A stretch of 64,000 bases of DNA from Comamonas kerstersii (GTDB lineage: Bacteria; Pseudomonadota; Gammaproteobacteria; Burkholderiales; Burkholderiaceae_C): assembly GCF_008801935.1 (NCBI RefSeq), contig NZ_VZOT01000011.1, positions 1-64,000 of the forward strand. The letters are read 5' to 3'. The position numbers and the translations under genes were made by a program. This document shows positions 48,837-52,828 of this stretch, in pieces (position 1 is the first letter of the stretch; the number at the start of each line of letters is the position of its first letter). The notes below the pieces were generated by a model, which ran no database searches, was not told the origin of the DNA, and worked only from the letters and a program-made list of their open reading frames with translations.

Positions 48837-51077
48837 TCAGAGCGTTGCCAGTGCGTCATGCACTTCCTGGCGGGTGAGTAGCTCGGTCATGACGATGGGC
48901 GCCTTGCCTGGTGCCAGTAGCACATACACGGGCACACCATTGCGGCCAAGGGCCGCCAGCGCGGCGGTGATGGTGGGCTCGCGCCGCGTCCAGTCTGCGC
49001 GCAGCAGGGCCACGCCATGAGCCGCAAAGTCGGCCAGTACCTTGGCGTCCGACAGCGTAGTGCGCTTGTTGTACTGGCAGGTCACACACCATGCGGCGGT
49101 GTAGTCCACAAACACGGGGCGGCCCTGTGCCAGCAGCTGCTCCTGCGCGGCGGGGGACCACGCCTGCCAGCTGCTGCTGCTCTGGCTGGCCTGCGCGACA
49201 GGCTCGGTGATGGAGCGGCCCATGCCCTGCACCAGCCATGCCGAAAATGCCAGTACCAGCACACCCAGCAGCACGCGTGTGCGGCCCTGCAGCGTCAGCA
49301 CCCACACGAGGGCGGCCAGACACAGCAGCAGCGCCAGCAGGGCGGCTGCCCCGTCAATCCCGCTTTGCTGGCCCAGCACCCAGACCAGCCACACGACGGT
49401 GGCAAACATGGGGAAGGCCATGGCGCGGCGGAAGGTGTTCATCCATGCACCGGGACGTGGCAGCCAACGCAGCAGGGCAGGCACAAAACTCACCAGCACA
49501 TAGGGCAGGGCCATGCCAATGCCCAGCGCGGCAAATACGGCCAGCGCCTGCACAGCAGGCATGCCCACGGCAAAGCCCAGCGAAGCACCCATGAAGGGCG
49601 CGGTGCAGGGCGAGGCAATCGCCACCGCCACGACACCGGAGACAAAGGCATCGCCCAGCGGGTGACGCGCATGCAGATTGGCTACGCGGTCGGGCACGAT
49701 ATTGCCCAGCTCAAACACACCGGCCAGGTTCAGGCCGATCAGGGTGAACAGTGCTGCCAGCGCGGCGACCACCAAGGGCGATTGCAGCTGAAAGCCCCAG
49801 CCCAGTTGCTCACCCGCTGCACGCAGGGCCAGCAGCAGAGCACCGAGCGCCACAAAGCTCAGAATCACCCCGGCTGCATAGGCCAGACCACCGTGGCGCT
49901 GCGCGCGCTGGTCACCGCCATGGCGTGCAAAACCCATGAGCTTGATGGCCAGCACCGGAAAGACGCAGGGCATGAGGTTGAGCAGCAGGCCACCCAGCAG
50001 GCCACCGACCAGTGCCATGGCCCAGCTGCTGGCGCTGGGGACATCGCTGATGGGCTGTGCTGCAGCCTGATTGGCCGCCAGTGCAGCCGCCAGTGCAGGG
50101 GACACCTGAGCCAGCTCTGCCGCTTTCCACTGGCCTTGTACGGCTGCTGTCAGCTGCCAGGCCTGTGAGGGGGGCGCATGGGCTACATCGCCTGTGGCAC
50201 CGGGCAGACCCAGCACAAAGTCCAGCATGGCCGGCGTGTCGCCACGCATGGTGGACAGCGGCAGCTCGGCACTCCAGACATTGCCATCCCAGCGCTGGGC
50301 GATGGGTGCTGCATGCTGAAAGGTATCTGCCGTTTGCGGGTAAAACGCCAGGGTCTGTCCCTGCGCCAGAGCAGGCAGGCCTTGCACGCGCAGCTGTACG
50401 CGGTCGCTATCAGGCTGGGCACTGAGGCTGGCTTGCGCTTCAGGTAGAGCCTGCGGCACCTGGGCCAGCGCCTGTGCAAATTCGGTGGCCCACTGGGTGT
50501 CGCTCACATCGGTGGGCAGGCGCAGCAGGAATTCGCCTTCTTCCGGAATGCACTCCACACGGCACACCAGCCAGGAAGCATGCAGGCGCAGCTCGGTGCT
50601 GTGGTCGGTACCGGGCTGAAATGCACTGCCAACGGTGACGGGCACAGGCAGTAGTACCGTGCCTTCATAACCGTAGTTGAGCATGTCGCCCACACGAATC
50701 TGCTGGGGGACGGGCCAGTCGATATCACCAGCCTGCATGCCCGCAGGCAGTGTCCAGCTCAGCTGCGTGGGCAGGCCGGAATCACCAGGGTTCTGCCAGT
50801 AGGTATGCCAGTCTGGCTGGTGCTGGATGCGCAGCCCCAGCGTCAAAGGCTTGCCAGCTGCCACACCTTCCGGAGCCAGAGCTACCAGCTGTGCCTGCAC
50901 ATGCGGGGTGGTGATGGTGTCTGCAGGGCCTGCGGCAGCAGCGCTGCCCAGATTCAGCCGCAGCTGGGCATGGGCAACCATGGGCAGCAGGACGGCACAG
51001 AACAGCCATGCCACAACACCCAGGGTCAGCGCTTGTGCATGGAAACGGCGGAAAGAAAAGAAACGGCGAGTTGGCAT
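48837..51077 (-). CDS. Thiol:disulfide interchange protein, DsbD/ScsB family
   Basis: 746 residues. Signal sequence, then a periplasmic N-terminal domain (about 40-300) with WHTYWQNPGDSGLPTQLSW, and a Cys pair in SWLVCRVECIPEEGEFLL. The membrane domain (about 350-600; LNLMPCVFPVLAIKLMGFAR, ASPCTAPFMGASLGFAVGMP) carries the CcdA-type Cys residues. A C-terminal thioredoxin domain has TAAWCVTCQYNKRTTL (CxxC about 664-667). It passes electrons from cytosolic thioredoxin to periplasmic partners. The N-terminal domain is nearer the ScsB type than E. coli DsbD (inference by eye). The gene lies beside a MITE at its 5' side. Confidence 0.88.
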   Translation of the reverse strand: MPTRRFFSFRRFHAQALTLGVVAWLFCAVLLPMVAHAQLRLNLGSAAAAGPADTITTPHVQAQLVALAPEGVAAGKPLTLGLRIQHQPDWHTYWQNPGDSGLPTQLSWTLPAGMQAGDIDWPVPQQIRVGDMLNYGYEGTVLLPVPVTVGSAFQPGTDHSTELRLHASWLVCRVECIPEEGEFLLRLPTDVSDTQWATEFAQALAQVPQALPEAQASLSAQPDSDRVQLRVQGLPALAQGQTLAFYPQTADTFQHAAPIAQRWDGNVWSAELPLSTMRGDTPAMLDFVLGLPGATGDVAHAPPSQAWQLTAAVQGQWKAAELAQVSPALAAALAANQAAAQPISDVPSASSWAMALVGGLLGGLLLNLMPCVFPVLAIKLMGFARHGGDQRAQRHGGLAYAAGVILSFVALGALLLALRAAGEQLGWGFQLQSPLVVAALAALFTLIGLNLAGVFELGNIVPDRVANLHARHPLGDAFVSGVVAVAIASPCTAPFMGASLGFAVGMPAVQALAVFAALGIGMALPYVLVSFVPALLRWLPRPGAWMNTFRRAMAFPMFATVVWLVWVLGQQSGIDGAAALLALLLCLAALVWVLTLQGRTRVLLGVLVLAFSAWLVQGMGRSITEPVAQASQSSSSWQAWSPAAQEQLLAQGRPVFVDYTAAWCVTCQYNKRTTLSDAKVLADFAAHGVALLRADWTRREPTITAALAALGRNGVPVYVLLAPGKAPIVMTELLTRQEVHDALATL

Positions 51078-51160
51078 GGCAAAGCTTGGAGGCAGAAACC
51101 GTATTGTGGTTCCCCGCGCACCCGGTGTGCAGCTTTTTCTGCCTGCGCTGCGGGGTCAGC

Positions 51161-51350
51161 TAGGGCGTGTTCACATCAACATTGGGTTCGCTGCCCCTGA
51201 TTATGGAGATCACAAATGGGGTTGAAGGCTTGGGGCGGTCTGCGTTGTTGCGGCGGCTTGCAAGGCGCCCGGCATTGCTGCGCCACCGCGCCTAGCATCC
51301 CATCCCCAAGCCTTCAACGCGAATCTCAAGCTTTATGTGAACACGCCCTA
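51161..51350. mobile_element. MITE-like non-coding element, about 190 bp, with 16-bp perfect terminal inverted repeats
   Basis: TAGGGCGTGTTCACAT (51161-51176) is the exact inverse of ATGTGAACACGCCCTA (51335-51350). A second perfect 15-bp inverted pair lies inside: GTTGAAGGCTTGGGG (51221-51235) with CCCCAAGCCTTCAAC (51304-51318). The ends are bounded by CTAG on both sides (51160-51163 and 51348-51351), consistent with a 4-bp CTAG (or TA) target duplication. No transposase frame fits inside, so it would need to be mobilised in trans. Its right end overlaps the C-terminal codons of the MATE gene. Confidence 0.85.
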
Positions 51351-52828
51351 GGGCGTGATGACGGGGCGTCGGGCTGGTGCAGGCGCCGCAAGGCGCAGAC
51401 AGGGGCTGGGGGCTGACCGCCAATTTCGGCGGGTGTGGCCACGGTCTCTTCATCGGCAGTGGGCAGCATGTGTGCCTCGCGCCAGCGGCCCCAGCGGTAG
51501 TAGGCCAGACTCATGAGCATGGCGCAGATGGAGCTTGCGGGAAAGCTCCACCAGATGGCATCTGCACCCAGCCAGGGCTGCAGCCATTTGGCCAGCGGCA
51601 GGCGTATGCCCCACAGCGAAATGGCCAGAATGACCAGCGGTGGAATCACGGCGCCGGTAGAGCGCACCACACCGGAGATGACAAAGGTCACGCCAAAGAA
51701 CACAAACGAGCCAATGGCAATGTGGTTGAGGTGGCGCGCTGCCTCAAGCGCGGCGCTGCCTGCGGGGAGAAACAGGCCCAGTACATGGCGATCCAGCAGC
51801 ACCAGCGGAATGATCAGCAGACCGGTCATCCAGATGTTGCACCAGATGCCTGCAGTGGCGGTGCCATCCACGCGCTGCCAGAGCTTGGCGCCCACATTCT
51901 GTGCCGCCATGGTGGAGCAGGCCGCGCCGATGGCCATGGCCGGCATTTGCACATAGGTCCACAGCTGCAGCGCCGCGCCGTAGGCGGACGAGGTGTCAAT
52001 GCCATAGCTGTTGACCATGCTCATCATCATGAGCATGGCCAGCGAAATCATCACCATCTGTGCGCCCATGGGCAGGCCTTTGACCACCAGCGCACGCAGG
52101 ATGGCCGCATGGGGCAGGAAGTAGTGCAGCTGCCTGCGCCCAATCCACAAGGGGTGTCTGCGGTGGTAGAGCCACAGCAGCATGGCGACAAAGCTGATGG
52201 CGTTGGACACCAGTGTGGCGGTGGCCGCGCCGGTGATGCCCATGGCCGGGAATGGCCCCCAGCCAAAAATCAGTACCGGGTTGAGAATGACGTCCAGCAC
52301 CACCACCAGCAGCAGGAACAGAAACGGGGTGCGGGTATCGCCTGCACCGCGCAAAATGGCCGAGACAAAGGCAAACAGGTACAGCAGCGGAATGGCCAGA
52401 AAGATGACGCGCAGATAGCTTTCAGCCAGCGGCAAGGCTGCGTCTGGCGTGCCCATCCAGTTCAGAATGTGGCGTGACAGCGGGTAGCCCAGTGCCGCAA
52501 TGCCTATCGATGCAAGACCAAAAAACGTGGCGCTGGTGCCCATGACACGGCGGGCCTGCTGCAAATCTTTGGCCCCCATGCTTTGCGCGACGAGGATGGT
52601 GGCAGCCATGCCCACGCCAAACACCAGCCCAATCAGCAGGAACATGATGTTGTTGGCATTCGCCGTGGCGGTGATGGCGGCTTCACCCAGGTAGTGACCG
52701 ATCCACATGGCGTTGACAGAGCCATTGAGGGACTGCAGCACATTGCCCGCCAGAATGGGCAGGGCAAACACCACCAGGGTGCGGGCAATAGGGCCTTGGG
52801 TCAGGTCTCGGGTAGGGCTGGAGGGCAT
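51326..52828 (-). CDS. MATE-family multidrug/sodium efflux protein
   Basis: 500 residues, twelve membrane helices in two halves. Early segments are LTQGPIARTLVVFALPILAG, NANNIMFLLIGLVFGVGMAA and VAQSMGAKDLQQARRVMGTS; the second half has GAACSTMAAQNVGAKLWQRV. Such proteins export drugs or metabolites by Na+ or H+ antiport across the inner membrane. The last seven codons and stop (RACSHKA*) come from the terminal repeat of the adjoining MITE; the pre-insertion end is predicted to be SSRPS* (see findings). The core is intact, so function is probably retained. Confidence 0.9.
   Translation of the reverse strand: MPSSPTRDLTQGPIARTLVVFALPILAGNVLQSLNGSVNAMWIGHYLGEAAITATANANNIMFLLIGLVFGVGMAATILVAQSMGAKDLQQARRVMGTSATFFGLASIGIAALGYPLSRHILNWMGTPDAALPLAESYLRVIFLAIPLLYLFAFVSAILRGAGDTRTPFLFLLLVVVLDVILNPVLIFGWGPFPAMGITGAATATLVSNAISFVAMLLWLYHRRHPLWIGRRQLHYFLPHAAILRALVVKGLPMGAQMVMISLAMLMMMSMVNSYGIDTSSAYGAALQLWTYVQMPAMAIGAACSTMAAQNVGAKLWQRVDGTATAGIWCNIWMTGLLIIPLVLLDRHVLGLFLPAGSAALEAARHLNHIAIGSFVFFGVTFVISGVVRSTGAVIPPLVILAISLWGIRLPLAKWLQPWLGADAIWWSFPASSICAMLMSLAYYRWGRWREAHMLPTADEETVATPAEIGGQPPAPVCALRRLHQPDAPSSRPRACSHKA

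Follow-up and report, generated by a model that had tools for sequence, protein, structure and literature searches.

The window, a stretch of 64,000 nucleotides from Comamonas kerstersii, includes a gene for a MATE family efflux transporter and, downstream of it on the same strand, a dsbD-like gene. A short mobile element of the MITE kind lies at the junction of the two genes, and the end of the MATE gene runs into it. The features of the locus are as follows:

48837–51077, minus strand: dsbD-like gene downstream of MATE
51156–51158, minus strand: former MATE stop codon (TGA) of the empty site, deduced from the flanks
51161–51162, no strand: target-site duplication, left TA (in CTAG), recognized by TA on both sides of all 13 genomic copies with variable outer bases
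51163–51348, no strand: the MITE itself (186 bp, duplicated TA excluded), delimited by comparison of the 13 copies
51163–51176, plus strand: left terminal inverted repeat, GGGCGTGTTCACAT, identical to the ends of an insertion sequence (IS) in the congeneric genome G011
51221–51235, plus strand: left arm (15 bp) of the internal inverted pair, which forms the hairpin stem
51232–51306, plus strand: internal hairpin module
51304–51318, plus strand: right arm (15 bp) of the internal inverted pair
51326–51328, minus strand: TGA stop codon in present use, inside the MITE
51326–52828, minus strand: MATE family efflux transporter gene (TIGR00797, 251.8 bits; PF01554), its last bases (51326–51348) being element DNA
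51335–51348, minus strand: right terminal inverted repeat, GGGCGTGTTCACAT, likewise identical to the ends of the G011 IS
51349–51350, no strand: target-site duplication, right TA (in CTAG), recognized as the left one

The architecture given in a preliminary description of this DNA was recovered in full. CTAG is present at both borders (51160–51163 and 51348–51351), the perfect 16-bp terminal repeat TAGGGCGTGTTCACAT (51161–51176) is the exact reverse complement of 51335–51350 (14 bp without the TA), and the 15-bp arms of the internal pair are 100% complementary. The wider arms (51160–51184 and 51327–51351) are 88% complementary. No open reading frame (ORF) of at least 60 amino acids lies entirely within the element, and all three reading frames, entered from either side, are stopped in it within 21 codons. 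The element is a MITE by its properties: it is short, has inverted ends, carries no transposase gene, occurs in multiple copies with TA duplication and has its ends in common with the G011 IS.

The MATE frame, as had been proposed, reads into the right end of the MITE and ends in APSSRPRACSHKA (RACSHKA before the stop), and the stop codon in use is supplied by the element. When the element is removed together with one TA (which leaves the same string as the removal of one CTAG, the operation suggested earlier), TGA becomes the second codon after CCT; the protein therefore probably ended in SSRPS before the insertion. The empty site is reconstructed from the flanks, the nearest relatives being only about 82% identical in MATE and thus too distant for base-by-base proof. 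The last residue, S, is replaced by RACSHKA, with seven codons read into the junction and the element before the TGA. The gap between the MATE stop and dsbD, probably 78 bp before the insertion, is 248 bp now and contains the MITE hairpin.

A MATE match was obtained in 49 of the 53 genomes of the genus. Comparison of the MATE ends covered 26 loci, namely 19 of 20 from one kept set (the remaining one being the window's own) and 7 of 80 from another; among them, L059 and L193 represent one locus, and L070 says little because its frame is cut short by an early stop. A RACSHKA-like end was present in none of the 26, which agrees with the proposal that this end came with the element. The nearest relatives (G012, 82%; G024, 82%; C. 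avium, 81%) have different ends.

Other copies of the element, expected if it is mobile, were found in the genome (3.51 Mb, 37 contigs): there are 12 more, and this multicopy MITE is thus represented by 13 in total. Six copies are 186–187 bp long, five are 283 bp, one is 271 bp and one 84 bp. Identity over aligned columns is 77–99% among the 13 and 93.5–98.9% among the six short ones. The long copies possess an additional nested palindrome. Since similar long forms are seen by eye in other species (L031, L039, L041), the short form probably arose by deletion and spread afterwards. As seen by eye, one long copy (L018:1501–1789; G000:C1:650290–650578) carries the core of its extra palindrome module in the opposite orientation to the rest, flanked by inverted arms of about 18 bp. 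The 12-mer GGGCGTGTTCAC occurs 25 times in the genome, whereas the reversed pattern does not occur at all; 22 of the 25 occurrences are ends of MITE copies, and three (L178–L180) lie elsewhere without a partner end.

TA is present at all 26 borders of the 13 copies. The target tetramers are CTAG in nine copies, CTAA in two, TTAA in one and TTAG in one, which corresponds to YTAR. Duplication of the whole CTAG is ruled out, because four of the 13 sites have unequal tetramers and equal TA; the duplication is therefore TA and the target YTAR. The short element had no match in a plasmid collection and a long copy none in a phage collection, the end pattern matched one IMG/VR contig, where no element is discernible by eye, and among 399 genomes of the family (a draw with five of the genus, neither G011 nor G024 being among them) it was found in the C. 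kerstersii genome only.

A transposon with the ends of the MITE does exist. Six genomes were searched for the end pattern, with matches in five, and G011 carries IS5-family elements of 827–829 bp with the border CTAGGGCGTGTTCACAT, whose 17 bases are identical to those of the MITE at both ends. They span 833–835 bp when bounded by CTAGGGCGTGTTCACATTA and are present as three full-length copies and one interrupted copy. Their transposase is encoded in two ORFs matching PF13340 (E = 2.2e-20) and PF01609 (3.1e-9). Against NF033580 (transpos_IS5_3) the ORFs cover model positions 4–111 (94.4 bits, which alone falls below the cut-off of 110) and 112–255 (110.9 bits), together 4–255 of 258. From this two-ORF layout we take the element to be IS427-like. 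Like the MITE, it sits at TA in CTAG; the transposase is found in the IS and not in the MITE, and the ends alone are shared. In G024 an end of the G011 type is present at contig edges, as expected if assembly broke up an IS present in several copies. In G035 there is a full-length relative (74%) with the ends GGGCCTGTTCACGTTA, and the G011 IS gave five partial matches (64.8–78.2%) to plasmids.

The full-length parent sought in the C. kerstersii genome was not found there. The 29 matches of the end pattern in this genome comprise 26 MITE ends and three weak ones, with no IS among them, and the G011 IS had no match in the 9 of 45 candidates scored. DUF4096 (IS4/5) matches occur in 43 of the 53 genomes of the genus and at six places in this one, in five stretches (L169–L173). 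The ends of the MITE were seen on none of these elements, and they were rejected as its parents. One of them (L170:951–1802, G000:C1) is an 848-bp IS5-like element whose ends, GAGCGTGTTTGCGATC and GAACGTGTTTACGATC, resemble the repeat ends of other species; for L169 and L171–L173, no convincing ends emerged when a scan was anchored on TA. Thus, the IS was either lost from this genome or the transposase came from elsewhere, and its source can be named only as a probable one.

The preliminary description had offered two origins, an IS5-type transposase if CTAG is duplicated and an IS630-type one if TA is. The duplication of TA was upheld, whereas neither the CTAG duplication nor the step from TA to IS630 was, since the matching IS belongs to the IS5 family. 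IS630 itself prefers TA in CTAG, so that mobilization by an IS630/Tc1-mariner transposase could explain both the TA duplication and the CTAG preference of the MITE. We nevertheless consider it very unlikely: nothing in the genome matches DDE_3 (PF13358), the one IS630 model compared, the full IS with the ends of the MITE encodes an IS5-family transposase, and another DUF4096 element of the genus (L149), with the ends GGGCGTGTCATC, also adjoins CTAG. A TA duplication, here paired with an IS5-type partner, does not by itself identify IS630, because the IS5-type elements seen also sit at TA in CTAG.

It could also be supposed that the repeat is a structured one (REP-like or an RNA gene), spread in some other way and kept at gene ends, for example for termination. 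The copies do lie at gene ends, and the fold of the window MITE as a single strand is very stable (−102.9 kcal/mol, z −8.5, as low in none of 200 shuffles). The internal hairpin module has matches in 31 further genomes of the genus and is 72–87% identical in 29 loci; in an alignment (A1) of 27 sequences (4 from this genome and 23 from others) its loops are near-invariant and its stems covary, with changes on both sides in 7 of the 20 predicted pairs. Against this stand the TA flanking every copy on both sides and the ends common to an IS; moreover, a consensus scan detected neither a sigma-70-type promoter nor a terminator inside the MITE, and the elements of six loci tested had no match to known RNA families (Rfam). 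Such an origin is therefore highly improbable for the element as a whole, while its internal module may serve a separate function, perhaps as cargo. Equally, the new C-terminus of MATE could be adaptive and alter the function or targeting of the exporter, for which nothing speaks beyond the change itself. The TIGR00797 match ends at residue 426 of 500 and the furthest weaker model at 459, so the tail lies past the MATE models, and tails vary widely in the 26 related loci (for example, PATAADST and TPTTTSDTR before the stop). An adaptive tail is hardly credible on these grounds; as the tail is past the conserved domain and variable among relatives, its rewriting was probably neutral, with little functional effect.

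The internal module is also combined with other ends. In 11 of the 29 loci it is enclosed by TNA-type ends unlike those of the window MITE, for example GAACGTGTTCACGATC with a TNA duplication. In G009 (L166:1260–2300) an IS5-like element with the ends GAACGTGTTCAAAGTCT directly adjoins a related repeat; the two have one border in common, and a further repeat end is located on the opposite side of the element. In G016 (L037:1634–1748) a TPP riboswitch-like match of 51.4 bits (gathering score 54.3) adjoins a related repeat.

Six of the 13 copies lie exactly in stop codons, those of eight genes, and all eight proteins have a Pfam match. The junction stop codon in each of these copies is TAG, formed from TA plus the G with which the element begins:

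Copy C13a: stop of a hybrid sensor kinase (its ORF is truncated at the edge of the stretch examined)
Copy C5b: stop of an SDR protein and stop of a convergent LrgB protein
Copy C19L: stop of an EamA transporter
Copy C1aL: stop of an EamA transporter
Copy C1cL: stop of an IclR regulator
Copy C1bL: stop of an acyl-CoA dehydrogenase and stop of a convergent M78 peptidase

Another six copies (C9, C4a, C4b, C5aL, C2L and C13b) have no junction-spanning stop and lie between recognized genes; candidate ORFs of 87–192 codons run into C4b, C5aL and C2L. Because six copies rebuild stops and six lie between genes, rewriting is the exception, and the window copy alone rewrites a gene end. Two plus-strand candidate ORFs to the left of C1aL (L024), 179 and 94 codons long, also terminate inside the element.

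The LrgB protein ends at the same residue in all seven readable relatives (VFF, LFF or IFF before the stop), four further relatives being unreadable, and the nearest relative (84%) has CTAA at its stop. SDR is not adjacent to LrgB in 11 relatives, so the whole empty site of C5b is not seen there. No description of this stop-codon-sparing pattern was found in the literature on stop-codon landing and CTAG targets, which does not establish its absence in print.

The frequency of such landings was compared with a background sample of 464 kb (the window and 20 stretches) annotated by a codon-usage gene caller. Stop codons are located at 14 of 203 CTAG and 92 of 838 YTAR sites of the sample, or at 14 of 141 and 92 of 582 when non-coding plus stop sites are counted; a cruder gene caller gave a similar result for the latter (12/123 and 83/507). 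When the window copy is left out because it lies in coding sequence, stops are occupied by four of the eight CTAG copies and six of all 12 (P = 0.005 and 0.006). ORF listing and Pfam served to class the copies and the caller to class the sample, and the test was chosen after the data were seen. Since the caller misses genes (0.85 per kb), the true stop-site background is higher; if it is raised to 0.20, the two tests give P = 0.056 and 0.019.

Among related TA-type elements with both ends found (five in G046, two in G042 and one in G002; the single-ended L243–L245, L247 and L248 were left out), a junction stop occurs in four of eight, each with at least one Pfam-matched gene. Pooled, 10 of 20 elements are at stops, with P = 0.0004, 0.0026 and 0.014 at backgrounds of 0.158, 0.20 and 0.25, all referring to a background from one genome. 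The G011 IS copies speak to the contrary: three of four have no junction stop, and the fourth has only that of a 152-codon ORF without a Pfam match. A script assigned TNA-type ends to 11, TA-type ends to six and none to 12 of the 29 loci with the internal module, having missed at least one known pair (L032); two of these loci, L031 and L041, had entered the preceding counts. A junction at which an ORF of 60 codons or more stops is present in 6/11 TNA-type and 3/6 TA-type loci, as counted without Pfam filter or background.

Selection against insertions in genes surely makes part of this pattern. We can propose only tentatively, and consider it rather doubtful, that IS5-type MITEs of Comamonas use the stop codon as a safe harbour, in which the YTAR target with a starting G (or the TNA duplication) would rebuild or keep the stop, even for two convergent genes, and stops would be used above other non-coding targets. 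The TNA duplication of the related repeats, which reads as a stop on one of the two strands, would be part of the same doubtful proposal. The stop-codon-sparing property itself looks general enough for a genome-wide count.

Taken together, the data make it very probable that a TA-duplicating IS5-type MITE re-ended the MATE gene, with a transposase acting in trans, a neutral tail as the result, and stop-codon landings elsewhere that spare the proteins. A non-autonomous element would have inserted at the TA of a CTAG overlapping the last two sense codons of MATE, in a frame where TAG goes unread, with duplication of TA, as comparison of the 13 copies shows. The MATE frame now continues for seven codons to the TGA of the element; the tail was rewritten because this CTAG is out of frame. 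The transposase was probably provided by an IS5-family element with the same ends, known from congeners rather than from this genome. The MITE starts with G on both strands, so TA and G give TAG from either end, and a copy landing in a stop codon rebuilds it and leaves the protein as before, as seen in six of the 13 copies.

Both the element and the event, a gene given a new end by a MITE, are of a known kind. According to PMC2759123, enterobacterial RU-1 repeats, which are MITE-like, are fused to the 3′ ends of genes, for example that of the amidase ECA3499. Like the window MITE, RU-1 is a mobile repeat without coding capacity, flanked by TA duplications and placed at a gene end, where the normal stop is lost, the stop of the repeat is used and the tail extends past the conserved domain; the element and the host are different, and about 35 residues are added instead of seven. 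The pneumococcal RUP, whose mobilization by IS630-Spn1 is proposed in PMC2229807, is likewise a MITE tied to an IS through the similarity of their ends and through TA as target, its partner being of the IS630 and not the IS5 type. The transposase stop codon of the IS481-family ISLxc2 lies within its NCTAGN target, according to PMC2516522. Its stop is drawn from a CTAG target, as with the MITE, but serves the element's own gene, whereas the stop of the MITE serves host genes on either side.

For annotation this means that part of the stop codon with which a gene ends may come from an element. The 13 copies yield the rule that a TA-duplicating, G-starting element inserting in YTAR can enter a TAG or TAA stop from either side and leave the protein unchanged, and this rule could help to explain the multiplication of such repeats in gene-dense genomes.
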